A stretch of DNA of 64,000 nucleotides from Buttiauxella gaviniae (GTDB lineage Bacteria > Pseudomonadota > Gammaproteobacteria > Enterobacterales > Enterobacteriaceae): assembly GCF_040786275.1 (NCBI RefSeq), contig NZ_JBFMVT010000002.1:2914001-2978000 (forward strand), read 5' to 3'. The position numbers were made by a program, and so were the translations under genes. Below, in pieces: positions 11,455 through 47,443 of this stretch. Every line of letters starts with the position of its first letter. The first letter of the stretch is position 1. The notes beneath the pieces were generated by a model, which had not been told where the DNA came from, ran no database searches, and worked only from the letters and a program-made list of their open reading frames with translations.

Positions 11455-13809
11455 ATGAATCCTGAGCGTTCTGAACGCATTGAAATCCCCGTATTGCCTC
11501 TGCGCGATGTGGTGGTTTATCCGCACATGGTAATTCCACTGTTTGTCGGGCGAGAAAAATCCATTCGTTGCCTGGAAGCGGCCATGGATCATGATAAAAA
11601 AATCATGCTGGTGGCGCAAAAAGAAGCCTCGACAGATGAGCCAGGTGTAAATGACCTGTTCTCAGTGGGTACCGTCGCATCTATTCTGCAAATGCTGAAA
11701 CTGCCAGATGGCACAGTAAAAGTGCTGGTTGAAGGTTTACAGCGTGCGCGTATTACCACGCTTTCTGACAACGGTGACCACTTCTCAGCGCAGGCTGAAT
11801 ACCTGAATTCGCCAGCTATCGAAGAGCGCGAACAGGAAGTGCTGGTGCGCACCGCAATTGGTCAGTTTGAAGGCTATATCAAACTGAACAAAAAAATTCC
11901 GCCGGAAGTGCTGACATCGCTCAACAGCATTGATGATCCTGCTCGTCTGGCTGACACCATCGCTGCACATATGCCATTGAAACTGACTGACAAACAGTCC
12001 GTTCTTGAGATGTCCGATATTAACGAACGTCTTGAATATCTGATGGCAATGATGGAGTCAGAAATCGATCTGCTGCAGGTTGAGAAACGCATTCGCAACC
12101 GCGTTAAAAAGCAGATGGAAAAGAGCCAGCGTGAGTACTATCTGAACGAGCAAATGAAAGCGATTCAGAAAGAACTCGGCGAAATGGACGACGCGCCCGA
12201 TGAAAACGAAGCGCTAAAACGCAAAATCGACGCGGCAAAAATGCCAAAAGAAGCGCGTGAAAAAACCGAAGCGGAACTGCAAAAACTGAAAATGATGTCG
12301 CCAATGTCTGCGGAAGCAACCGTGGTTCGTGGCTACATTGATTGGATGGTGCAGGTGCCGTGGAATGCGCGCAGCAAAGTGAAAAAAGATCTGCGACAGG
12401 CGCAGGAAGTTCTGGATACCGATCATTACGGCCTTGAGCGTGTGAAAGATCGTATCCTCGAATACCTCGCGGTTCAGAGTCGCGTTAACAAGCTCAAAGG
12501 GCCAATTCTGTGCCTGGTTGGGCCTCCTGGCGTGGGTAAAACTTCACTGGGTCAGTCCATCGCTCGCGCGACCGGGCGTAAATACGTGCGTATGGCGCTG
12601 GGCGGCGTGCGTGACGAAGCTGAAATTCGCGGTCACCGCCGGACTTATATCGGCTCCATGCCGGGCAAATTGATTCAGAAAATGGCGAAAGTGGGCGTTA
12701 AAAACCCATTATTCCTGTTAGATGAAATCGACAAAATGTCTTCTGACATGCGTGGCGATCCGGCTTCCGCACTTCTGGAAGTACTTGATCCAGAACAGAA
12801 CGTGGCGTTTAACGACCATTATCTGGAAGTTGATTACGATCTGAGCGATGTAATGTTTGTGGCAACGTCCAACTCCATGAACATCCCAGCCCCGCTGCTG
12901 GATCGTATGGAAGTTATTCGTCTTTCTGGTTACACCGAAGATGAGAAGCTGAACATTGCCAAGCAGCATCTGTTGACCAAACAGATTGAACGTAACGCGC
13001 TGAAAAAAGGTGAAATCACGGTTCACGATAGTGCAATTATCGGCATTATTCGTTACTACACTCGTGAAGCTGGTGTACGTAGTCTGGAACGTGAAATTTC
13101 CAAACTGTGCCGTAAAGCGGTTAAACAGTTGTTGCTGGATAAATCGCTCAAGCACATCGAAATCGATGGTGACAACCTGAAAGATTTCCTTGGCGTACAG
13201 CGCTTTGACTATGGTCGCGCAGACAGCGAAAACCGCGTCGGCCAAGTAACGGGTCTGGCGTGGACTGAAGTGGGTGGCGATCTGCTGACTATCGAAACCG
13301 CATGTGTACCAGGTAAAGGCAAGCTGACCTACACCGGTTCTCTGGGTGAAGTGATGCAGGAATCCATCCAGGCGGCATTGACCGTGGTGCGCGCGCGTGC
13401 GGAGAAATTGGGCATTAATGCTGACTTCTACGAAAAACGTGACATCCACGTTCACGTGCCAGAAGGCGCGACGCCGAAAGATGGCCCAAGTGCCGGTATT
13501 GCAATGTGTACCGCGCTGGTTTCTTGCCTGACGGGTAACCCTGTTCGTGCCGATGTGGCAATGACAGGTGAAATTACGCTGCGTGGCCAGGTTCTGCCAA
13601 TCGGTGGTTTGAAAGAAAAACTGCTGGCGGCACACCGTGGCGGCATCAAAACTGTTCTGATTCCGGACGAAAATAAACGCGATCTGGAAGAGATTCCGGA
13701 CAACGTTATCGCTGACCTGAAAATTCATCCGGTGAAGCGAATCGAGGAAGTTTTGGCGCTCGCATTGCAGAATGAGCCTTACGGAATGCAGGTTGTCACT
13801 GCAAAATAG
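11455..13809 (+). CDS. lon: ATP-dependent Lon protease
   Basis: Lon is the cytoplasmic AAA+ serine protease that removes misfolded proteins and short-lived regulators such as SulA. The 784-residue product equals the E. coli length. It has the LON N-terminal substrate domain (residues 1-200), a coiled region, Walker A GPPGVGKT, Walker [10 protein letters not shown] and the C-terminal protease domain. The catalytic dyad is Ser679 (in PKDGPSAG) and Lys722 (in GGLKEKLLA). The start follows AAGAGAGAG. Confidence 0.98.
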
Positions 13810-13841
13810 TGACCTGACGCATATTCGGTAAATAAAATCAG

Positions 13842-13878
13842 AGCTGGCTGGTGAATTGTCACTTGCCAGCTTTTTTTT
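13842..13878 (+). terminator. Rho-independent terminator of lon
   Basis: AGCTGGC pairs with GCCAGCT across a 16-base loop that may be partly structured, followed by eight T residues. Confidence 0.85.
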
Positions 13879-14019
13879 GTATCGCTACTTTAGATTGCTG
13901 GCGATGTATGCCATTAACAACGGGTGTTGTAAGGGCATGACAGGCCTGATATAACTGCTGCGCGGTCGCACCTTGAAGGATACCGGTGCGATATAAATTA
14001 TAAAGAGAGGAAGAGAAGA

Positions 14020-14292
14020 GTGAATAAATCTCAACTGATAGACAAAATTGCCGCAGGTGCTGATATTTCTAAAGCTGCGGCGGGACGTGCATTAGACGCT
14101 GTGATTGCTTCTGTTACTGAATCTCTGCAATCCGGGGAAGACGTGGCACTGGTTGGCTTTGGAACTTTTGCTGTTCGTGAACGTGCTGCCCGTACCGGCC
14201 GTAACCCGCAAACAGGTAAAGAAATCACCATCGCTGCTGCAAAAGTACCAGGTTTCCGTGCTGGTAAAGCACTGAAAGAAGCGGTTAACTAA
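14020..14292 (+). CDS. hupB: DNA-binding protein HU-beta
   Basis: HU-beta is a nucleoid-associated protein that bends DNA, usually as an HU-alpha/beta heterodimer. The 90-residue product has the bacterial DNA-binding signature [18 protein letters not shown] followed by QTGKEI in the DNA-gripping arm. The start codon is GTG, after the purine-rich GAGAGGAAGAGAAGA, as in E. coli. It stands alone between the lon terminator and its own terminator. Confidence 0.97.
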
Positions 14293-14335
14293 TTTATCGT
14301 CCGGTTTTTAGGGCAAGGCGAGTAAAGTTAGGTCA

Positions 14336-14363
14336 GGGCGCATCGTTAGATGTGCCTTTTTTT
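14336..14363 (+). terminator. Rho-independent terminator of hupB
   Basis: GGCGCAT pairs with ATGTGCC (one G-T pair) around CGTTAG, followed by seven T residues. Confidence 0.85.
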
Positions 14364-14525
14364 ATGCCTGACGGCTAATTTTGCGCATGTTTGATGATTT
14401 GAACCCATTTTCTTGTCACAATACCCGCTTGCACGCAGCGGCACAGCAGTACGCATATTCAGGGATGCCCATTTAGCGACTGCGCTGGGTTTACCATTCA
14501 CACTACAGTGGAGTGTTGTTACACC

Positions 14526-16397
14526 ATGATGGACAATTTACGTACGGCGGCAAACAGCCTCGTAATCAAGATAATTTTCGGGATCATTATCGTGTCATTC
14601 ATTTTGACTGGCGTGAGTGGCTACCTGATTGGCGGTAGTGCTAACTACGCCGCGAAAGTGAATGGCCAGGAAATTAGCCGCGGTCAGTTTGAAAATGCTG
14701 TAGCCAGCGAGCGTAATCGCCAGCAGCAACAGCTTGGCGAACAGTTCTCTGTACTGGCCGGTAACGAAGGCTACATCAAGCAGATGCGCCAACAGGTGCT
14801 GTCGCGCATGATTGATGAAGCGTTGATGGATCAATATGCCAAACACCTTGGCCTTGGCATCAGCGATGAACAAATCAAACAAGCCATCTTTAAAGAGCCT
14901 GCGTTCCAGAATAACGGCAAATTTGATAACGCACGTTATACCGCCATTATCAACAACATGGGTATGACTGCTGATCAATACGCAAATGCACTGCGTAACC
15001 AACTGACCACTCAGCAGTTGATTAACGCTATCGTTGGCACGGATTTCATGCTGACCGGTGAAACTGACGAACTGGCAGCGCTGGTATCGCAGCAACGCGT
15101 CGTACGCGAAGCCACCATTGATGTGAATGCCCTGGCCGCTAAGCAAGACGTTTCCGAGCAGGAAATCACTACCAGCTACGAGCAAAACAAAAACAACTAT
15201 ATCGCCCCTGAGCAATTCAAAGTCAGCTACATCATGCTTGATGCGGCTTCTCAGAAGGTTGAGGTGGCTGATACAGACATCCAGGCCTACTACGACCAGC
15301 ATCAGAACGAATTTACTCAGCCACAGCGTAACCGCTACAGCGTAATTCAGACCAAAACTGAAGCCGAAGCGAAGGCACTTCTTGATGAGCTGAGCAAAGG
15401 TGGTGATTTTGCTGCACTGGCAAAAGAAAAATCGGCTGACATCATCTCTGCCCGTAACGGCGGTGACATGGGCTGGCTGGAGCCGGGTACCACTCCTGAC
15501 GAACTGAAAAATGCCGGTCTGAAAGACAAAGGCCAGCTTTCTGGCGTGATCAAATCTTCTGTTGGTTTCCTGGTTGTGCGTCTTGACGACATTCAGCCTG
15601 CGCAAACTAAGCCGCTTTCTGAAGTGAAAGATGCAATTGCGGATAAAGTAAAACAAGAGAAAGCGGTTGATGCTTACTATGCGCTGCAACAGAAAGTGAG
15701 CGATGCGGCAAGCAATGACAACCAATCTCTGGCGAGCGCTGAACAGGTTGCAGGGGTTAAAGCGGTTGAGACTGGCTGGTTTGGTCACGACAACTTACCA
15801 GCAGAACTGAACTTCAAACCGGTTGCAGACGCGATTTTCAATGGTGGCCTGGTCGGTGAGGGCGGTACGCCGGGTAGCAACTCCGACATCATCACTGTTG
15901 ATGGCGACCGCGCGTTTGTCGTGCGTATCGCGGAGCATAAAGCCGAAGCGATTAAGCCTCTGGCAGAAGTGCGTGACCAGGTTATCGCGCAGGTGAAACA
16001 TCAGAAAGCTGAGCAGCAGGCGAAGCTGGATGCTGACAAACTGCTGAACGCGCTGAAAATGGGCAAAGGTGATGAAGCGTTGAAAGCTGCAGGCCTGAGC
16101 TTCAGTGCGGCGAAAACGCTGGCCCGTACCGGCCAGGACCCAATCAGCCAGGCGGCCTTCACTCTGCCATTACCGGCTAAAGACAAGCCAGCTTACGGCG
16201 TGGCTAACGACATGCAGGGTAACGTGGTTCTGTTAGCGCTGGATGAAGTTAAGCCTGGCGATATGCCTGCAGAGCAGAAAAAAGCGATGGTTCAGGGAAT
16301 TACCCAGAACAACGCCCAAATCACTTTCGAAGCGCTGATGAGCAATCTGCGCAAAGAAGCGAAAATCAAGATGGGCGACAGCGTCGACCAGCAGTAA
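14526..16397 (+). CDS. ppiD: Periplasmic folding chaperone PpiD
   Basis: PpiD is anchored in the inner membrane by one N-terminal helix and assists proteins leaving the SecYEG translocon. With the ATG at 14526 the protein has 623 residues, exactly the E. coli length; an upstream in-frame start at 14508 is less likely. Order: transmembrane segment (residues about 16-36), SurA-like chaperone region, and a parvulin-type domain at about residues 230-360 (NGGDMGWLEPGTTPDEL). The long open frame on the opposite strand is a composition artefact. Confidence 0.96.
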   Translation: MMDNLRTAANSLVIKIIFGIIIVSFILTGVSGYLIGGSANYAAKVNGQEISRGQFENAVASERNRQQQQLGEQFSVLAGNEGYIKQMRQQVLSRMIDEALMDQYAKHLGLGISDEQIKQAIFKEPAFQNNGKFDNARYTAIINNMGMTADQYANALRNQLTTQQLINAIVGTDFMLTGETDELAALVSQQRVVREATIDVNALAAKQDVSEQEITTSYEQNKNNYIAPEQFKVSYIMLDAASQKVEVADTDIQAYYDQHQNEFTQPQRNRYSVIQTKTEAEAKALLDELSKGGDFAALAKEKSADIISARNGGDMGWLEPGTTPDELKNAGLKDKGQLSGVIKSSVGFLVVRLDDIQPAQTKPLSEVKDAIADKVKQEKAVDAYYALQQKVSDAASNDNQSLASAEQVAGVKAVETGWFGHDNLPAELNFKPVADAIFNGGLVGEGGTPGSNSDIITVDGDRAFVVRIAEHKAEAIKPLAEVRDQVIAQVKHQKAEQQAKLDADKLLNALKMGKGDEALKAAGLSFSAAKTLARTGQDPISQAAFTLPLPAKDKPAYGVANDMQGNVVLLALDEVKPGDMPAEQKKAMVQGITQNNAQITFEALMSNLRKEAKIKMGDSVDQQ

Positions 16398-38365: not shown

Positions 38366-39946
38366 TCAGGGTTTATTTTGCGCTTTTAATCCCGAACGGC
38401 GGTCATTCGCCACCCACGCTATAAACTCCTGTTTTGCCAGGGCCTTACTGAAAAGCCAGCCCTGGCCGTACTGCACGCCTTGCTTACGCAGCCATGTGGC
38501 CTGGCCGGGCGTTTCAATGCCTTCGGCCACCATTAAAACACCCAGCGAATTTGCCATTTCAATAATGTGCGGCGTAACGTTTTTATATTCGAGCGCATCG
38601 ACGAACGACTTGTCGATTTTAAGAATATCAATGTCCAGATCCTGCAAATAGCTGAGGCTTGAATAACCCGTACCAAAATCATCGATGTAGACGGGATGCC
38701 CGGCTTCACGATATTGCGCGATCATCGGAGCGGTGATTTTAGGATCGGCGAAACCGCGTTCGGTAATTTCTAAGGCGATTTGTCCCGGTTTAACGGAATA
38801 ACGGGTCAGATAAGGCGCAATGACTTCAAGAATATGCAGGCTGTGCACATCACGTGCACCAAGATTAACCGAAATATGGAAGTCTGGGTGCTGGTGAAGC
38901 CACTCGCCTAGCTCAAGGAAAATAAGCTCAATGACCAGTTCAGTTAATTGCGTGACCAGCCCCGTTTGCTCCGCTAAAGGAATAAACACGTCCGGACTGA
39001 GCATGGAACCATCTTGTTGCTGCCAGCGGATTAAGGCTTCAGCGCCGACGCATTTGCTATTTTGCAGTTGCACGATGGGTTGATAGACCACACTGATTTC
39101 ACGATTTTTGATCGCATCCATTAAACGATTTTGCGGCGATAACAGCCTGCGCAGGATACGAATTAAAAATCCACCAAATGCGAGGCTTATCAGCAGACCA
39201 ACCGGTAGCCAAATAAATAATTGTTGATACCAGGCCGTCGTCAATGGCGTGGTAGAGGCCCAGACAATCATTGCCAGGCCAAGGTCATTGTCTCGACGAA
39301 TAACGTAGAGATTATTGTCGCTTTCAAACTCTTCTAAACCTTGCTCCAGCGGCTCGCGCCACTCTTCAGAAACATACTGATTATTGCTGACGATAATCAG
39401 TTTCTTATTCAGACCGACCATAACAATATTGAGCGTGTAATTCCCCCAGGGGAGCACATCGATAAATGATATTGGATCGAGCAGGGCGAGATGGTTTTGT
39501 TTGCCGACATAGACCATTTTGCGTGGAAAACCGCGCAGCAGAGGTGTGCTATACCATGCATTAAAACCATGTGGGCCGTACCTGTCAGGCTTACCAAGTG
39601 TTTCGTTGTGGGTAAATGTTTCCAGCGAACTACAAAGAATGCGGTTATTTTGCTGGAACATCACTTCCTGCACATAGCGATATTCAAGCGCCACGCGGTG
39701 CATCGCTTCAGCGTGCGCAGGTGAGCAGGTATCATCTTTAAACCGGTTAATATCATCAATGGCGAAAATAGCCTGATCGACAACTTCCCCAGTGCGCTGC
39801 AGAGCTTGCTCGGCAAACTCTCCGAGTTCGTCATGAAATACCTGTTCGGCCTTGCGGTGCGCAAAATAGACGCTTAATAAAATGGGCAGTAAAACTGCTA
39901 CCACAAGTACACCGCTGACCAGGTTGACGAGTTTTCGGGATGTCAT
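38366..39946 (-). CDS. pdeB: Cyclic di-GMP phosphodiesterase PdeB (YlaB), CSS-motif EAL protein
   Basis: The 526-residue protein begins with a membrane helix (residues about 8-26), a periplasmic CSS-motif domain (two Cys-Ser motifs, in DDTCSPAHAE and ILCSSLE) and a second helix, then a C-terminal EAL domain. EAL signatures are present: EALIRW, DDFGTGYSSLSYL and KIDKSFVDAL, so it is probably an active c-di-GMP phosphodiesterase gated by periplasmic disulfide state. I chose the ATG at 39946; the frame is open 63 codons further, but that extension has no family match that I recognise. It keeps the ylaB position relative to ylaC. Confidence 0.88.
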   Translation of the reverse strand: MTSRKLVNLVSGVLVVAVLLPILLSVYFAHRKAEQVFHDELGEFAEQALQRTGEVVDQAIFAIDDINRFKDDTCSPAHAEAMHRVALEYRYVQEVMFQQNNRILCSSLETFTHNETLGKPDRYGPHGFNAWYSTPLLRGFPRKMVYVGKQNHLALLDPISFIDVLPWGNYTLNIVMVGLNKKLIIVSNNQYVSEEWREPLEQGLEEFESDNNLYVIRRDNDLGLAMIVWASTTPLTTAWYQQLFIWLPVGLLISLAFGGFLIRILRRLLSPQNRLMDAIKNREISVVYQPIVQLQNSKCVGAEALIRWQQQDGSMLSPDVFIPLAEQTGLVTQLTELVIELIFLELGEWLHQHPDFHISVNLGARDVHSLHILEVIAPYLTRYSVKPGQIALEITERGFADPKITAPMIAQYREAGHPVYIDDFGTGYSSLSYLQDLDIDILKIDKSFVDALEYKNVTPHIIEMANSLGVLMVAEGIETPGQATWLRKQGVQYGQGWLFSKALAKQEFIAWVANDRRSGLKAQNKP

Positions 39947-40081
39947 TCTTTGTGACCCAGTGAGTGGTGAATTTTTATAAAAGATTAATGAGGTTAGTCT
40001 ATCCCACCTGAACGTGGGATTATACCCGTCATATTTTAAGTGATGGCGAAAGAGTGCTAAAGCGCGTCTGGTGGGCAATAC

Positions 40082-40804
40082 ATGAAGAAAAAAGAGTTTG
40101 TTATCCAGGATCTGTTGAGCAAAATTTACCAGCATAACGATTCACAACGACGTAAATTGCCGCCTGAACGCCAGCTTGCGGTGGAATATGATGTTTCGCG
40201 TTTCACTATTCGCAAAGCGTTAGAAAAACTGGTGAGTATCGGCGTCATTGAGATTATTCAGGGTTCCGGTATTTGGATTAATCCGCAGGCGCGTAATAAT
40301 CCGCTGGTTTATAACTCCATCACCGAGAAGCGTTTTGACCAGATGGCTTTTCGCATGGTGAACTTACATAAAAAATTACCCAGTCGTGAAGAGCAGCAGG
40401 TATTTGGCCTGGGGGCCGAGGAGTATATTTGGCAGTTTTGCCGGGTGCGTTATGTGGATGCTCAAAAGGTACAAATTGAAACCTCGCGCATGCCGGTGCA
40501 GGATTTCCCCGATCTTAACCAACAGGTAATTGAACGCTCTATTCAACAATATGTGCTCGGAAAAGGATTGCGGATTTCGCATTTGCTCACCAGCTATCAG
40601 GCTGTTGCGGTGAATAAAGAGCAGGCGGCGCTGCTGGAGTGTAAAAAAGGTATCCCGGCGATGCACATCATCAACCGGGGGATCCTCGAAGGGGGTCGGG
40701 TGTTTGAAATTAGCGATATCATTGATATCAATTATTCATGCACCTATGTTATCCCTTTTAATCACGACAACCTTGCCTGGCGCCAGAGTAATCAAGGGGT
40801 GTGA
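40082..40804 (+). CDS. GntR-family (HutC subfamily) transcriptional regulator
   Basis: The 240-residue protein has an N-terminal winged helix (residues about 10-75, [20 protein letters not shown]) and a C-terminal UTRA ligand-binding domain (residues about 90-235). This subfamily usually senses a phosphorylated sugar or acid. Its 3' end overlaps by 13 bases the convergent dehydratase gene, so it probably controls the dehydratase and PTS genes next door. The ligand is unknown. It is divergent from pdeB across 135 bases. Confidence 0.86.
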
Positions 40805-41991
40805 ATCGCCCCGTTCGGCAAACGGCTTTGTGTCCATTCATGCGGGCGATATTCCACCGGGAAGGCTTCCGCTTTTTGTTGGTCGAAGCCAACGCCAATT
40901 CCGGGCCTTTCCAGCGGATAAATATAGCCTTGTTCGGCCACCGGTGCGCCGGGAAATACCGATTCGGTATTTGGTTTATTCGGGATAAACTCCTGAATCG
41001 CGGCGTTATGAAGGTGGATATTTAAATGGGTATTCACCGCAACACCAATCGGCGTCATATCACCGGGGCCGTGCCAGGCAAGACGAACGCCGAAAGCCTG
41101 GCAAAGAATGGCGAGTTTAAGCGCAGGCGTAATCCCGCCAATTTGTGATACGTGGCAGCGGATAAAATCGATCCGGCGATTTACTATCAAATCATGCCAT
41201 TCCGCCGGGTTATTAAATAGCTCGCCCGTGGCGAGTGGAACGGATGAATGCGCGCGAACCTGTTCTAACCAGGCGCTTTGCTGTGGCGGTAAAATATCTT
41301 CGATAAACCACGGCTGATACGGCTCAAGCGCTTTTGCCAGTTGTACCGCCTGCTGGGGGAATAAGCGCTCATGCACGTCGTGAAGAATATGGAACTGATT
41401 GCCGTATTTTTCCCGCAAGGCCTTAAACATGGCTACGGTATTCGCCATATATTCATCCTGATCGTAATAGGCACCGGCAGTTGGCGATTTAGTGGCATGT
41501 AAGCCCTGCGGTGTGCCGCCGTAAAATCCTAACTGGCAGCGGATGTAGCGGTACCCTTGCGTCAGAAGTTTATCCACTTCCAGATACAACCCTTCCAGCG
41601 TTTCACTGGCGGCGTGGCTGTAGGCGGCAATCGCGTCTTTCGATTTCCCCCCGAAAAGCTGATACAGCGGCATTCCGGCAAGCTGGCCCTTGATATCCCA
41701 AAGCGCCATATCCACCCCGGCGATGGCATTGTTGATAACCGGGCCGTTGCGCCAGTAGGCATTGACCGTCATCATCTGCCATAAATCTTCAATGTTGTTC
41801 GCATCACGCCCGATGAGCAGGGGTTTGAGATATTCATCGACCATGGTTTTTACCGCCAGCGGACGCTGCTGGAAGGTGGCGCAGCCGAGCCCCGTCACGC
41901 CTTTATCGGTAGTGACACGCACGGTAATCAGGTTGTGCCGATCGGGGCGCGTAATAAAACATTCAATATTTTTAATAAGTGTTGGGTTCAC
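40792..41991 (-). CDS. Enolase-superfamily acid-sugar dehydratase, ManD/RspA-like
   Basis: The protein belongs to the mandelate racemase/D-mannonate dehydratase subgroup, which removes water from sugar acids. From a GTG at 41991 (GGAG seven bases upstream) it has 399 residues; an ATG at 42042 would give 416 but places 17 atypical residues before [19 protein letters not shown]. Metal ligands are visible as Asp205 (in LHDVHERL), Glu231 (in FIEDILPP) and Glu257 (in ATGELFNN). His207 and the WHGPGDMTP motif are the likely acid/base residues. Whether it acts on mannonate, gluconate or another acid cannot be read from sequence. Confidence 0.82.
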
Positions 41992-42171
41992 GAGATAACT
42001 CCACAGACCGTGAGATAACAGGCTTCTGTTATTTACTATCACCTTATTTTTGAGGGTGGGTAAATCATTTTTTTTGCTTATTTTTATTGGTCAGAAAAAA
42101 TCGCATTGTGAAAGTAAAAACCATACCAATTTGGGTTGTTGTGATGTTTTTGGGCTTTCTTGTCGGCTAAC

Positions 42172-42187
42172 TGTGATGGCGTTCAAA
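42172..42187 (+). promoter_or_regulatory. Candidate CRP site upstream of PTS gene
   Basis: TGTGA, six bases, TCAAA matches the CRP consensus with one mismatch, and the outer bases AACT/AGTT extend the symmetry. It lies about 90 bases before the PTS start in the 283-base divergent space shared with the dehydratase. Carbon-source control is therefore plausible. The small frame at 42050-42247 in the same space does not look like a gene. Confidence 0.5.
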
Positions 42188-42274
42188 GTTTATTGGTTTG
42201 TTTTCGTGTGTACGATTCCCTACCATGCGTTGGCATTCAACACATAATAATTAGCCATTCTTTGGGAGTGACAG

Positions 42275-43651
42275 ATGGGGACTCGTGATGCCATTAATAA
42301 TATTATTAACCTTGTAGGTGGTGCGGATAATATTAGTAAAGCCTGGCACTGTATGACGCGCTTGCGTTTCTCTTTGGTTGATGAAAATAAAATTGATCAA
42401 TCGGCGATCAAAAAAATACCCGGCGTATTAGGGGCGCAAATTCAGAGCGATCAATTCCAGATTATTATTGGCCCGCAGGTAAATACCTGGTACGAACAAT
42501 TGACGACGGCGCTGGGAGGTTCTGCGGCGCAACCTGCTGCGGGTAGCCAGAAGAGCGCGCGTAAAAGCTTGGTGTCGATGTTTATGGATACCGTGTCGGG
42601 CGTATTTGGGCCGATTGTTCCCGCTATTGCGGGTGCCGGGATGATTAAAGGCCTGCTGGCCGGTTTAATTGCTTTAAAAGTGGTTTCTGCGAAAAGCGAT
42701 ACGGTTATCGTTATCGACCTGATTGCCAGCGGCGTGTTCTATTTTTTACCGTTCTTTCTCGCCATCTCCGCCGCACGTATTTTTAAAACCAATGAATATC
42801 TGGCCGCGGCGGTGGCCGCGTGTTTGATGTATCCGTCGCTGATTGAAGCGGCGAAAGCCCTCGCAAGCCATGCGCCGGATGCGGTTGATGCATTCTATTT
42901 TCTGAATGTGATCCCGGTTTCGGTGTTCAACTACGCCTCAAGCGTTATTCCGGTCATCTTCTCGGTTCTGGCGCTCAGTTATATCCACCGTTGGGTGGAC
43001 AGATTTATGCCTGACGTGCTGAAAACGGTATTCACGCCGACACTGACGCTGTTCATTGCCGCGTTAGTGGCGTTGGTGGTGATTGGGCCGCTGGGAATTT
43101 ATCTGGGTAAAGCACTGGCGTGGTTTATCGAAGGGTTATTTGGTGTTTCGGCGAGCTTTGCGGGCCTGGTCGTCGGGGCGATTCGTCCGGTGGCGATTTT
43201 AACCGGCATGCATCACGCCATGACGCCAATCGCCCTGCAAAACTTTACCGATCGCGGCTACGACATGCTGATGCCGATGATGTTTATGGCGAATATGGCG
43301 ATTGCGGGTTCCACTTTCGCTATCTGGAGGCAAAGCAAATCACGCGAAGAGCGTGCGGTGGTTTTGCCTGCGGCAATTTCAGCTCTGTTAGGCATTACCG
43401 AACCGGCACTGTTTGGTGTACTGACGCGCTATAAGAAAGCCTTTATTGCCGCCACGGTAGCCAGTTCCATTGCTTCCGCGTTTATTGCCTTCTTCGGCGT
43501 GCGTTTGTATGGCTATATTTTGTCGAGCATTTTTAGTTTACCGGCATATATCGGGCCGTATTTTATCTTTGCTCTGATGGGCGTTGCGCTGGCGTTGGGG
43601 TTGTCGTTTACGTTGACTACCGTGCTGGTGCGTGAAAGAACGTTGAAGTGA
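42275..43651 (+). CDS. PTS EIIBC component, glucose/glucoside (sucrose-type) family
   Basis: The 458-residue protein has an N-terminal EIIB domain with phosphorylated Cys26 in AWHCMTRLRFSL and a ten-helix EIIC domain with the sugar-site motifs TGMHHAMTPIALQ and GITEPALFGVL. Its layout is that of sucrose- or trehalose-type permeases, with no EIIA domain, so it would depend on EIIA-Glc (Crr) encoded elsewhere. No phospho-glycosidase, the usual partner, is nearby; its neighbours are an acid-sugar dehydratase and a GntR regulator. The start follows GGGAG. Substrate unknown. Confidence 0.88.
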   Translation: MGTRDAINNIINLVGGADNISKAWHCMTRLRFSLVDENKIDQSAIKKIPGVLGAQIQSDQFQIIIGPQVNTWYEQLTTALGGSAAQPAAGSQKSARKSLVSMFMDTVSGVFGPIVPAIAGAGMIKGLLAGLIALKVVSAKSDTVIVIDLIASGVFYFLPFFLAISAARIFKTNEYLAAAVAACLMYPSLIEAAKALASHAPDAVDAFYFLNVIPVSVFNYASSVIPVIFSVLALSYIHRWVDRFMPDVLKTVFTPTLTLFIAALVALVVIGPLGIYLGKALAWFIEGLFGVSASFAGLVVGAIRPVAILTGMHHAMTPIALQNFTDRGYDMLMPMMFMANMAIAGSTFAIWRQSKSREERAVVLPAAISALLGITEPALFGVLTRYKKAFIAATVASSIASAFIAFFGVRLYGYILSSIFSLPAYIGPYFIFALMGVALALGLSFTLTTVLVRERTLK

Positions 43652-43655
43652 AGTT

Positions 43656-43679
43656 TTTGGATTTGGATTTGGATTTGGA
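43656..43679. repeat. Hexanucleotide tandem repeat (TTTGGA)4
   Basis: Four perfect copies of TTTGGA begin five bases after the PTS stop codon. Such repeats can change copy number, but this one lies outside any reading frame. Confidence 0.9.
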
Positions 43680-43687
43680 TGTCAAAT

Positions 43688-43827: not shown

Positions 43828-44499
43828 TTAACGTCGGTGCGCCAGACGGCGTACCAGACGATCGCCAACACTTTGTACCAGTTGTACCATCGCGACCAGA
43901 ATCACCACGGTGCCGATCATCACCTGATCGTTGAATCGCTGATAACCGTAGCGAATCGCCAGGTCACCTAATCCCCCGCCGCCAATCACCCCGGCCATCG
44001 ATGAAAAGCCAATCAACATGACGACGGTGAGCGTGATCCCCGCCAGCAGCGCCGGGAGTGCTTCAGGTAACAGCACTTTGCCGATGATATGCCAGACATT
44101 TCCACCCATAGACAGAATGGCTTCGATACGGCCTTTATCGACTTCATCTAGCGCATTTTCAACAACGCGGGCAAAGAACGGGAAAGCGCCAATCGTAATG
44201 GGAACCACCGCCGCCGTACTGCCAAGCGTGGTGCCGATGATAATGCGGGTGAAGGGGATCAGCGCAATCAACAGCACGATAAACGGCAGCGATCGCCCAA
44301 CGTTCACAATGCTGCCGATAACCTGATTAAAAACAGGAGCAGGTAAAACGCCATCGCGGCGGGTGAGAAACAGTAGCACGCCCAACGGCAAGCCGATTAT
44401 CACCGTAAACAGTGCGGCAAGGCCGACCATGTACAATGTGTCCAGCGTGCCATCAAGTAGCAATGGCCATAAATCTTCCCAGGCTAAGCGACTTCGCAT
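43828..44499 (-). CDS. MetI-type ABC transporter permease
   Basis: The 223-residue inner-membrane permease has five membrane segments and the EAA-type loop [20 protein letters not shown] that contacts the ATPase. It belongs to the methionine/sulfur-compound uptake (MUT) family. Its start overlaps the end of the ATPase gene by 16 bases, and it is the last gene of the operon. It is likely a paralog of the housekeeping metI, which normally lies elsewhere with metN and metQ. Confidence 0.9.
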
Positions 44500-45275
44500 A
44501 ACACTCTCCCTGAAACGCCGATGCGGCGTAAAAATGCTTTTTCTGCTTCGTTGCCCGGAAGTAACGCCTGGCGCAGACGGGAATAAGGTTTAACCAGTAA
44601 TTCAGACAGCGCACCGCTCTCTACAAGCCTGCCGTTTTCCAGCAGCGCCGCGTGGTCGCAGATAGCTTTCACCACTTCCAACTGATGAGTGATCAGCACG
44701 ATGGTGACGCCCAGTTTGCGGTTGATGTCCATTAACAGCGCCAGCACGGAGGCCGTGGTTTCACTGTCCAGCGCGCTGGTCGCTTCGTCACAAAGCAGCA
44801 CATCAGGATGGGCTGCCAGGGCTCGTGCAATACCCACACGCTGCTTTTGCCCGCCGGAAAGCTGGGACGGAAATGCCTGGGCTTTATCGCTCAGCCCCAC
44901 TAATTCGAGCAGTTCAGCAATGCGGGCCTGGCGCACGTCACGTGGCTGTCCGGCGATTTCCAGCGGCACGGCAATATTGTCGGCCACATTGCGGGCGTGA
45001 ATCAGATTGAAATGCTGGAAGACCATGCCGGTGCGCTGGCGGTGTAGCCGCAATTCACGATGATTAAGGGTAGTGATATCCACGTCATGCATCAGGATAC
45101 GGCCCGACGTGGGCCGCTCCAGCAGGTTAAGGCAGCGGATCAAGGTGCTTTTCCCGGCACCGCTGCGCCCGAGAATGCCGTAGATTGCGCCATCCGGCAC
45201 CGTCAGTGAGACATCATCCAGTGCCGGTTGGCCTCCTCCGGCATACACTTTGCTCAGCCGCTCAAGGGTGATCAT
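44484..45275 (-). CDS. MetN-type ABC transporter ATPase lacking the NIL domain
   Basis: The 263-residue ATPase has Walker [10 protein letters not shown], signature [15 protein letters not shown], Walker [14 protein letters not shown] and the H-loop LITHQ. It resembles MetN, but E. coli MetN has 343 residues. The missing part corresponds to the C-terminal NIL (C2) domain that binds methionine and causes trans-inhibition. The start overlaps the metQ-like stop (ATGA) and the end overlaps metI by 16 bases, so there is no sign of an accidental frameshift. Confidence 0.88.
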
Positions 45276-46081
45276 GATTGTGGTGTAGCAACCGGGATCA
45301 CGGAGCCGTTGAACTGCTTGCGAATAAAGTCGGCAACCTGCGGGGATTGCAGATCTTTCGCCAGCTCCTTGATGCGCGGGTCGTTAGCCAGATTCGGGTT
45401 GGTGACCAGAATATTGGCGTACGGGTTATGGGTAGCGCTTTCCAGCCCCAGCGCATCTTTCGATGGCGTTAAACCGGCCTCCAGCGCGTAGTTTCCGTTA
45501 ATCACAGCCAGATCCACATCATCCAGGGATCGCGGCAACTGCGGCGCTTCGATTTCGATAATTTTCAGCTTCTTCGGATTGCTGGCGATGTCTTTCGGCG
45601 TGGCCTGGTTTGTGGCGGCGTCTTTAAATTCGGCCTTCAGGGTAATCAGCCCTTTGTCCTGCAACAGATAGAGCGCCCGGCTCAGGTTGGTGACATTGTT
45701 CGGCAACGCGATAGTGGCATTTTCCGGGACGGATTTAAGGTCTTTATATTTGTGCGAATAAATCCCCAGCGGTTCGATATGCACCGTTGCGGCAACGGTG
45801 AATTTTTTCCCCAGCGCTTTTTCCTGATCTTGCAGATAAGGCACGTGCTGGAAATAGTTGGCGTCAACGTCGCCGTTTGCCAGGAGTTCGTTTGCATTCA
45901 CGCCGTTACTGAGCTCAACGATTTTTAATTTCAGATTCGGATCGAGTTTTTGCACAAAGGCGAGGATCTCCGCGTGCGGAACCGGATCGGCTGCGATACG
46001 TAATGTTTCGGCGGCCTGAGCGCTGAAAGCCAGAGTCAAAGACAGCGCGATCCCTGCCAGTTTAAAAGAGGCATTTTTCAT
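45272..46081 (-). CDS. MetQ/NlpA-family periplasmic substrate-binding protein
   Basis: The 269-residue protein from the ATG at 46081 (after GAAGGAAAAC) has an ordinary signal peptide ending AFSAQAAE, with no lipobox cysteine. E. coli MetQ, in contrast, is a lipoprotein. Family features include [12 protein letters not shown], the [20 protein letters not shown] region and YFQHVPYLQ. It would bind methionine or another sulfur or amino-acid compound for the MetNI-like transporter; the ligand is not determined. Confidence 0.88.
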
Positions 46082-46099
46082 GGTGTTTTCCTTCAAAGT

Positions 46100-47137
46100 T
46101 TAAGCGATGAGTTCAGTGCTGTTACGCAAGACATCCGGGTAATAACGTTCCGCTACGTCAGGATGTGAACGCAGACGGCCTTTCAGGTAATTCCAACCGA
46201 CATCACGCAGTAGCGGATTGTGCGGGTCGCTTTCCGGGCCATGAGCCTGTTGCGCAAGCTGTGGCGGAAGTGCGTAAATCGGGACGACGGCATCTAATTG
46301 TGCGCCGAGGAAAAATGCTACCGACTGGCGTTCCTGACCGGGCGGAGGGGAGACCACGCGGTGTACCGTGGCACGTAAATATCCATTGGTTGCCAGCTCC
46401 AGCAACTCACCGATATTCACCACAAAACTGCCGGGTAAAGGGGCGGCATCTATCCAGTTGTCAGGCGTGACTTCGACCTGCAAACCTTGCTGCTGATCTT
46501 GTAGCAAGAAGCTCAGGAAGCCGGAATCTTTGTGGGCGCCCACACCCTGATTTCCTTCAGTAGCCTGCTGACCTGGGTAACGAATCAGTTTGATATGTTC
46601 GTTAGGCTTATTGCCATACAGGTTATCGAAGCTGTTTGCCGGAAGCTCCAGCGCTTGCGCAAAAGTGCGCAACAGTTTCAAAGCGACCGCCGTCATTTCG
46701 CGCTGGAATTGCAGCAGAGTCGGTTTGAGCGTGGGTAATGAATCAGGCCAGAGATTAGGTCCTTGCAAACGCAACCAGCCGGGTTGCGATTCATTGACCG
46801 AAAGTGCAGGGCGTTCAGCGCCAATATCAAACTGTTCGCGCCAGTCTGGTTTCCCGCGGGTGAGTTCGCTGGCAGCGCGGTTGTAACCACGAAAATGGGG
46901 GGAGTGAATCATCGCAACTTTTTGTTTTTCTTCATCTGGCAAAGAGAAAAACTGTTGGGCTTCATCCTGAACGGCCTGTTGCAGTTCGGGGCTAATTCCA
47001 TGATTGATCAAGTAGAAGAAACCGATATCCCGAGCAGCGTGGCGTAATTGCTCCAGAAACGCAGCGCGATCGGTGGCTGTACCTTCAAGGGCTAAAAGAT
47101 CGAGTATTGGCAAGGCTTGGGTCGTTGTTCTGCTCAT
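46100..47137 (-). CDS. 2-oxoglutarate/Fe(II)-dependent oxygenase, isopenicillin N synthase-like
   Basis: The 345-residue protein has the N-terminal DIOX_N region (DIGFFYLINHGI) and a C-terminal jelly-roll 2OG-FeII domain. The iron facial triad is visible as His202-x-Asp204 (in GAHKDSG) and His259 (in ATVHRVVS). The cosubstrate-binding R-x-S is Arg270 and Ser272. The start at 47137 has GGAG six bases upstream. It is the first gene of an operon with the MetQNI-like importer, 18 bases apart, so it probably oxidises or releases the imported compound. Substrate unknown. Confidence 0.87.
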   Translation of the reverse strand: MSRTTTQALPILDLLALEGTATDRAAFLEQLRHAARDIGFFYLINHGISPELQQAVQDEAQQFFSLPDEEKQKVAMIHSPHFRGYNRAASELTRGKPDWREQFDIGAERPALSVNESQPGWLRLQGPNLWPDSLPTLKPTLLQFQREMTAVALKLLRTFAQALELPANSFDNLYGNKPNEHIKLIRYPGQQATEGNQGVGAHKDSGFLSFLLQDQQQGLQVEVTPDNWIDAAPLPGSFVVNIGELLELATNGYLRATVHRVVSPPPGQERQSVAFFLGAQLDAVVPIYALPPQLAQQAHGPESDPHNPLLRDVGWNYLKGRLRSHPDVAERYYPDVLRNSTELIA

Positions 47138-47443
47138 TTTGAACTCCGCATAATTCAGATTTTTTTTCGAAACGTTCTGATTTTTTTGCCCAACAATATG
47201 TTTCACAACGACAGCGCTGACTCATGATTTATCCCTTTTGGAATGATGTGGATTTCGTTGAAATTACATTGCCGTAACTGCGGCATGCAGCCCAATATTG
47301 TTATCTTCTAAGTTATGGCTGGAGCAGGTTCTAAGCTTTTGCAGAATTTGGATTTGCCGGTTTCTGCTTGCCTTTTACGCGTTTCTCTTTTATTTTGTTG
47401 TTATGTTATATTGTAACAATTAATAGAAATAAAAGAGGCTTAA
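47138..47443. other. Divergent intergenic region between oxygenase operon and rpmJ2
   Basis: These 306 AT-rich bases contain the promoters of two divergent units. Apart from the Zur box at its right end and the oxygenase RBS at its left end I see no gene or strong structure. Confidence 0.6.
47404..47418 (+). promoter_or_regulatory. Zur (zinc uptake regulator) box of rpmJ2
   Basis: TGTTATATTGTAACA closely matches the gammaproteobacterial Zur core TGTTATAATATAACA (two mismatches by eye) and lies 26 bases before the rpmJ2 start, where it would cover the promoter. Confidence 0.75.

Follow-up and report, generated by a model that had tools for sequence, protein, structure and literature searches.

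The described systems closest to the locus reported here each share some of its parts. The locus lies in a window of 64,000 nucleotides (the whole stretch of DNA that we analysed) from the 4.76 Mb genome of the enterobacterium Buttiauxella gaviniae. It consists of three genes, called the trio below, which encode a GntR-type regulator, a dehydratase of the enolase superfamily and a permease of the phosphotransferase system (PTS). The beta-glucoside permeases BglF and AscF have an EIIB and an EIIC of the same superfamily and an adjacent catabolic enzyme, but a quick tree places them apart from the trio clade, and their partner is a 6-phospho-beta-glucosidase whereas that of the trio permease is a dehydratase. 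MurP, by annotation, is a PTS of this superfamily that delivers an acidic sugar, N-acetylmuramic acid, to the enzyme MurQ. MurQ is an etherase that breaks an ether without hydrolysing a glycoside, and it is unrelated to the enolase superfamily; no MurQ-like gene was found in 31 trio loci when E. coli K-12 MurQ was the query.

Two streptococcal systems are also comparable. As PMC6837340 describes it, a PTS in the streptococcal glycosaminoglycan locus (PTS, UGL, DhuI, DhuD, KdgK and KdgA) imports an acid-containing disaccharide of hyaluronan, and the acid half is burnt via KdgK and KdgA. This resembles the pathway that we propose, in that import of a disaccharide by a PTS leads to 2-keto-3-deoxygluconate (KDG), KdgK and an aldolase. 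It differs in having a PTS with EIIA, EIIB, EIIC and EIID, and in using a hydrolase, an isomerase and a reductase in place of one dehydratase. BguR of Streptococcus pneumoniae is a GntR-type repressor beside the bgu PTS operon, and its operator, AAAAATGTCTAGACAAATTT, overlaps a -35 site (PMC3585215). That operator differs from the motif found at the trio, and the available passages of that paper on bgu mention no dehydratase.

The trio is a real, widely conserved and co-inherited module, found on chromosomes and plasmids. By a first-pass annotation of this DNA, its reading would fail if the genes were not found together elsewhere, and several surveys now show that they are. Our initial search for relatives covered 119 genomes, 19 of which had a strong dehydratase match. 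The order PTS-dehydratase-GntR was kept in all 18 loci with a dehydratase identity of at least 72% (counting the window's own), and two weaker paralogues (45-48%) had no PTS within their 1.5-kb flanks. An order-wide survey used 394 genomes drawn evenly from a larger group, with thresholds of E <= 1e-150 for the dehydratase and E <= 1e-100 for the PTS. The dehydratase was present in 22 of them and the PTS in the identical 22, one of which has an additional 41% PTS match. By coordinates, the two genes were divergently adjacent in every one of these genomes, separated by some 270 to 450 bases. The 22 genomes span 10 genera and are related by descent, so their joint occurrences are not 22 independent events. 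The wider sample took the best 80 of at least 586 relatives' loci, plus five plasmid stretches. Here a PTS gene was divergently adjacent in 31/31 loci with a dehydratase identity of 62% or more and in 0/54 loci at 61% or less (some with short flanks).

These 31 loci come from Enterobacteriaceae, Pectobacteriaceae, Erwiniaceae, Rahnella, Vibrio, Clostridium, Lachnospiraceae, a Paenibacillaceae bin, Bacillus, Enterococcus and lactobacilli. The trio is plasmid-borne on Cronobacter pESA3, in Rahnella, on a Vibrio megaplasmid and on an Enterococcus gallinarum plasmid. A GntR match accompanies the other two genes in 30 of the loci (partial in L057, absent in L037); the regulator gene is convergent with the dehydratase gene in 26 and co-directional in four. 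Accidental neighbours without a common function would be in keeping with the flanking genes, which differ between genera, but the linkage holds on chromosomes and plasmids of several phyla, and a control-region motif is common to the loci. The linkage counts disfavour an accident decisively, and we give it next to no credence.

Evolutionary distances within the trio are correlated as well. We compared the window with 25 of the 31 loci (26 in all; L029, L037, L039, L047, L057 and L109 were omitted as near copies or incomplete) and obtained pairwise-distance correlations of r = 0.64 for PTS-dehydratase, 0.83 for PTS-GntR and 0.86 for dehydratase-GntR. With two Vibrio loci removed (24 left), these became 0.86, 0.94 and 0.90. 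Among the matches listed, the closest named dehydratases were those of Buttiauxella agrestis and B. gaviniae, at 95-96% identity. In E. coli, trio DNA matched 11 of 5,426 genomes, each over no more than 5% of the query, and what matched was rspA or another enolase-type gene. Among the plasmid relatives, one at 45% identity that we inspected has an L-idonate dehydrogenase gene close by. In one locus of the same genus (L026, G011:C1) the dehydratase appears as two overlapping tblastn pieces, apparently frameshifted, beside PTS and GntR matches. The nearest relatives without a PTS are L055 and L056 (61%), one beside a LacI regulator and the other beside a sugar-type ABC transporter; as a pair they offer an obvious comparison for studying how the PTS was gained.

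The first-pass annotation knew of no pathway with exactly this set of genes, and we likewise found no published description of the trio in the literature searched, most subscription journals lying outside its scope. The observation made there was right and understated. Its proposal of a functional carbohydrate unit stands as far as co-inheritance across genomes is concerned; the substrate is a matter of interpretation, to which we return below.

The loci also share non-coding sequence. The motif [CT]TGG[AT]N[CT][AG]NT[AT][AT], read forward, occurs in 30/30 extracted control regions from Proteobacteria and Firmicutes, and two loci outside the extracted set (L047 and L052) also carry it between the dehydratase and PTS genes. 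A stricter form, WYTGGWNYRNTTT, occurs in 28 of the 30 regions, with 0.18 expected from 50 rounds of base shuffles; this expectation flatters the motifs, because the patterns were written after viewing the sequences. The case for a motif shared from Enterobacterales to Enterococcus is strong at the level of sequence. All 15 Enterobacterales regions have a second, inverted copy, spaced at 74 bases in 13 of them and at 73 in the other 2. The spacing is kept although the median identity of the bases between the sites is only 46% and the region as a whole ranges in length from 273 to 324 bases. Since the fixed spacing is near seven helical turns, it suggests that the two putative operators sit on one face of the DNA, perhaps looped.

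A CRP-like site had been proposed for this region, and it was recovered and is conserved in relatives. The best match scores at least 8/10 in 16 of 18 proteobacterial control regions and in 2 of 12 firmicute ones (counted without a shuffle control). Throughout the 15 Enterobacterales regions it lies between the two operator-like sites, always 17 bases away from where site A starts, and 13 of these 15 matches score 8/10 or better. Single motif sites are not specific: the window's own genome contains 7 copies of ATTGGWNYGKTTT and 14 of a reversed control pattern. Only the two occurrences in the trio control region form a pair; the other five are unpaired, and this search of the genome found no further pathway genes. 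The looser 13-letter motif also matches elsewhere in several fetched loci. Other candidate elements were set aside. A stretch like TGTTTCCGTTTTCAC in the Enterococcus regions resembles a catabolite-responsive element (cre), but some Proteobacteria score equally high (12-13 scored positions), so that the consensus scan cannot separate the groups. A generic promoter scan gave 4 sites with 5.7 expected, and terminator-like sites (18, with 5.1 expected) were mostly inside genes and were not used.

The regulator itself belongs to the GntR/HutC class with a UTRA domain, as PF00392 scored 53.8 bits (cut-off 27) and PF07702 80 bits (cut-off 23.8). Its best NCBIfam match is the trehalose-operon repressor, at 85.7 bits, far under the cut-off of 212. 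Regulators with a UTRA domain of this kind commonly respond to sugar phosphates.

For clues to the pathway we looked at the neighbours of the trio. The pick comprised 104 proteins of 150-1099 amino acids near the dehydratase, with five large ones left out, and the survey covered 99 proteins from 20 loci (126 families were found, of which the 25 commonest were shown). The commonest families were PfkB (6) and 2-keto-3-deoxy-6-phosphogluconate (KDPG) aldolase (5). Six of the 31 loci have both a PfkB-type kinase gene and a KDPG aldolase gene close to the trio (Vibrio L040 and L112, Enterococcus L049-L051 and Lactobacillus L052), and in the Enterococcus and Vibrio loci they lie 3' of the PTS gene on the same strand. 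Both are present in 2/54 loci without a PTS. The Vibrio kinases are closest to KdgK, with 362 and 378 bits on NF052444, just under the cut-off of 400. The aldolase of L112 passes the KDPG aldolase model PRK05718 (308 bits, cut-off 241), and the Enterococcus and Lactobacillus aldolases also pass a KDPG aldolase model (320 and 324 bits, cut-off 238). The 25 commonest families did not include unsaturated glucuronyl hydrolase, DhuI or DhuD. At a separate place (G000:C2, 1840100-1841769; L001 and L126), another enolase-superfamily enzyme lies beside a KDPG-type aldolase in what looks by eye like a dgo-type operon.

Because this kinase and aldolase join the trio in these six loci, they point to KDG as the product of the dehydratase. 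A KDG-kinase-like gene implies that the product would carry no 6-phosphate, which fits a disaccharide with its phosphate on the other sugar. The first-pass annotation had offered three explanations for pairing a PTS with a dehydratase: a phosphorylated acid substrate, a sugar whose acid part is released later, or a regulatory role for the dehydratase. The second fits best, since dehydration of a simple 6-phospho-acid would leave the kinase with no role.

We therefore favour, at about an even chance of being right, a reading in which the PTS imports and phosphorylates a predicted glycosyl-aldonate and the dehydratase carries out an elimination on its acid half. The EIIBC would rely on the cell's general PTS proteins and on a IIA encoded at another locus, presumably Crr, to import the glycosyl-aldonate and phosphorylate its neutral sugar. 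The dehydratase would then abstract the alpha-proton of the aldonate half and eliminate the beta-substituent, giving KDG and a hexose 6-phosphate; the split may be direct or aided by a 6-phospho-glycosidase encoded elsewhere. This chemistry is presumably that of the superfamily, whose catalytic residues are intact in the trio enzyme. For the kinase and aldolase steps, Vibrio, Enterococcus and a Lactobacillus would use the genes next to the trio, and other bacteria presumably genes at another place. GntR/UTRA would repress both divergent promoters through the ATTGG(A/T)NTG(G/T)TTT-like sites and be released by the phosphorylated sugar, while CRP, through the sites seen between them, would add catabolite control.

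A glycosidase could also act before the dehydratase. The glycosyl-aldonate would then be imported as above, a 6-phospho-glycosidase encoded elsewhere would free the aldonate, and the dehydratase would act on the free, unphosphorylated acid. This accounts for the kinase and aldolase, and GH1 genes are present in 11/12 genomes or plasmid records that carry the trio. Near the trio, however, no glycosidase family is among the 25 commonest of the neighbour survey. Searches of the 31 trio loci with E. coli K-12 BglB, AscB and TreC found GH1-like DNA in just 2 (L049 and L109), in pieces both times, and a TreC-like gene in none (other glycosidase families were not searched for). We regard a glycosidase-first order as unlikely. 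In L049 (Enterococcus crotali, 11487-14847), a second PTS and then a GH1 gene in two frames lie a few kb behind the trio gntR. In L109 (NZ_CP116511.1, ~463200-464620, the Enterococcus gallinarum plasmid), a GH1 gene with internal stops lies ~5 to 7 kb from the PTS, beyond other genes.

The scarcity of glycosidases would also be explained if the enzyme were a disaccharide lyase and no dehydratase. It would remove the C2 proton of a 3-O-glycosyl-aldonate and expel the sugar phosphate from C3, yielding a hexose 6-phosphate and KDG in one step, with the 6-phosphate put on the neutral sugar by the PTS. Such a reaction would account for the lack of a glycosidase among the genes found to travel with the trio, for the KDG-kinase-like protein and KDPG aldolase that in some loci do travel with it, and for a failure of plain sugar-acid libraries to reveal the activity. 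If true, glycosides would here be split by an elimination and not by hydrolysis, which would be a new mode of glycoside cleavage, but we think it rather doubtful.

The PTS permease bears on the choice of substrate. Both of its domains score over their cut-offs (PF00367 EIIB, 54.8 bits; PF02378 EIIC, 119.4 bits), which places it among the Glc-superfamily permeases; the Pfam domain scan of the protein found no IIA domain. Two Gram-positive relatives that we scanned have a fused IIA (PF00358 in L042, TIGR00830 in L049). On the beta-glucoside PTS subfamily model TIGR01995, the window PTS reaches 424.4 bits, under the cut-off of 614.7, and an Enterococcus relative with a IIA reaches 585.1. In the quick tree, the 26 trio PTS fall on one side of a branch with an SH-aLRT of 99, separate from BglF, AscF, TreB, MurP and two other PTS; the reference branches of this tree are long and were flagged by the program's warning.

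The dehydratase was originally described as ManD-like, and this holds only in the broad sense. It is an enolase-superfamily enzyme of the MR/MLE type (PF02746, 90.9 bits; PF13378, 145.5 bits; both over cut-off), but on the ManD model NF043051 it scores ~385 bits (385.2 and 384.7), under the curated cut-off of 550, whereas a true ManD elsewhere in the same genome scores 746. It shares with the ManD/RspA subgroup (NF043051) its domains, metal ligands, His/Arg/Tyr set and, likely, alpha-proton abstraction followed by beta-elimination. It differs at the N-terminal PDRHN stretch, in the change of Asn to Gln41, at YRPHEW and in the C-terminal tail, and it is fed by a PTS. A more distant homologue is 5xd7, 3,6-anhydro-L-galactonate cycloisomerase, at 108 bits. 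This enzyme presumably breaks a C3 ether by beta-elimination, the ether being intramolecular, with no PTS and no phosphate involved.

The nearest solved chain is 3tji (776 bits), followed by seven further distinct chains at 643-696 bits (4ggh, 3r25, 3sbf, 3s47, 3gy1, 3dfh and 4hnl). These eight stand well above the next group (409-413 bits) and the solved ManD/RspA chains (~279-306 bits), and all were deposited under generic names. End to end, 4hnl aligns almost identically with the PTS-linked dehydratase of Enterococcus gallinarum; it is the only one of the eight tied to a PTS locus, the other seven being placed by score alone. Solved enzymes, probably of this group, are reportedly inactive on mannonate, gluconate and other acid sugars, which speaks against the glycosidase-first order, in which the dehydratase would act on a free aldonate. 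Among the matches listed for six of the structure codes, no title or abstract start showed a paper on this enzyme. Mannonate dehydratases are handled only as one class among others in the available text of PMC4922564, and in that of PMC3759002 the Cronobacter copy is named only "starvation sensing protein RspA", in a plasmid gene list.

Several dehydratase members, that of Cronobacter included, carry this RspA annotation, which would suit a regulatory or moonlighting protein that is no catalyst. The active site speaks against this. R151, Y157, D205, H207, E231, E257, R278, H307 and E334 are invariant in the 26/26 trio enzymes, and the same nine are kept in 54 relatives without a PTS, except that position 157 is Tyr in 53. 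D205, E231, E257, H207, H307 and R151 correspond to the metal ligands and the catalytic His and Arg residues of ManD, and Y157 aligns with the ManD catalytic tyrosine in the larger alignment. Given these invariant metal ligands and acid/base residues, and a regulator of the usual sort already present, a regulatory dehydratase is disfavoured and seems to us very improbable. In all likelihood, these genes are mislabelled where they are annotated as "RspA" or "galactonate dehydratase".

Two residues that we take to line the ManD pocket are changed. The Asn is Q41 in all 26 trio enzymes, and the C-terminal Trp is H397 in 15, V in 7 and I in 3 of them. The PTS-linked clade is marked by R18, Q41, F156, H326, H328, Y381, R382 and H384, among other positions, and of these R18, H326, R382 and H384 are non-basic in both L055 and L056. 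Basic residues specific to the clade would fit a phosphate-bearing substrate, though this is suggestive only.

Those basic residues could equally hold a 6-phosphate on the acid itself. The PTS would then import a simple monosaccharide acid, or a sugar that is oxidised afterwards, and phosphorylate it at C6, and the dehydratase would turn the 6-phospho-aldonate into KDPG in one step. This is the simplest path, needing only a PTS and a dehydratase, and the window's own genome encodes three members of the KDPG/KHG aldolase family. The KDG-kinase-like gene of the six clusters would be needless on this path, however, and the closest kin of the PTS are glycoside transporters, the permeases of the beta-glucoside type. 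We consider such a path unlikely.

Several points weigh against the glycosyl-aldonate reading that we favour. No natural glycosyl-aldonate is tied to all of the hosts of the trio. In 25/31 loci there is no kinase-aldolase pair in the fetched flank, and the Enterococcus and Lactobacillus kinases are well under every curated cut-off. The PTS of the Vibrio family is only 42-45% identical to the window PTS while the dehydratase there stays at 72-73%, and a PTS that has diverged so far could have changed its substrate. In one smaller alignment the ManD catalytic tyrosine falls opposite a gap. Basic residues have also been lost in the clade (positions 10, 183, 291 and 376, common in the group without a PTS), which is why the argument from basic residues is suggestive only; it is one of residue statistics.

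The three genes are at the positions given in the first-pass annotation (Table 1). Re-measurement confirmed a 13-base tail-to-tail overlap between gntR and the dehydratase gene (the regulator ends at 40804 and the dehydratase stop codon starts from 40792) and the size of the divergent gap. The latter depends on the start codon. The longest dehydratase open reading frame reaches 42042, 17 codons beyond the likely start, but this longer reading is interrupted by a stop codon in four relatives of the same genus. A GTG at 41991-41989 has GGAG 7 bases upstream, and on both grounds it is most likely the start, which makes the dehydratase-PTS gap exactly 283 bases.

Table 1. Coordinates of the trio and its control elements in the window.
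Feature	Position	Strand	Remarks
GntR/HutC-type regulator with UTRA effector domain	40082..40804	+	240 aa; PF00392 + PF07702
ManD-like enolase-superfamily dehydratase	40792..41991	-	399 aa; PF02746 + PF13378
Divergent control region of dehydratase and PTS	41992..42274		283 bases
GGAG, likely ribosome-binding site of dehydratase	41999..42002	-	sequence
Site B, ATTGGTATGGTTT, putative GntR operator, dehydratase side	42118..42130	-	motif conservation
CRP-like site TGTGATGGCGTTCAAA	42172..42187	.	9/10 consensus positions
Site A, ATTGGTTTGTTTT, putative GntR operator, PTS side	42192..42204	+	inverted copy of site B, 74 bases off
PTS EIIBC, beta-glucoside (Glc superfamily) type, without IIA domain	42275..43651	+	458 aa; PF00367 + PF02378

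The trio is flanked by norV/norR and an EAL phosphodiesterase gene on one side and by a methionine-type (MetNIQ-like) ABC transporter on the other. The phosphodiesterase gene (38366-40135, minus strand) encodes a CSS-motif/EAL enzyme for cyclic di-GMP, and its longest open reading frame overlaps the gntR start. A relative of it adjoins the trio in the Buttiauxella, Lelliottia and Citrobacter loci and in 2/3 Kosakonia loci, and not in the Rahnella or Pectobacterium loci. The MetNIQ-like genes (43828-46096, minus strand) also flank the trio in Buttiauxella and Kosakonia. After them, an open reading frame at 46100-47206 resembles by eye an iron/2-oxoglutarate oxygenase. A short tandem TTTGGA repeat lies directly 3' of the PTS stop codon (~43654-43680).

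A set of solved enolase-superfamily structures bears only generic names, and the strict PTS link gives the hunt for their substrates a direction. It points to phosphorylated acidic disaccharides, not free acids, as the compounds to look for, and it spans Enterobacterales, Vibrio, Clostridia, Enterococcus and lactobacilli. Our analysis yields a concrete assay and a candidate operator with which to start. That such different bacteria share the trio suggests that they use an acidic sugar in a way not yet described.

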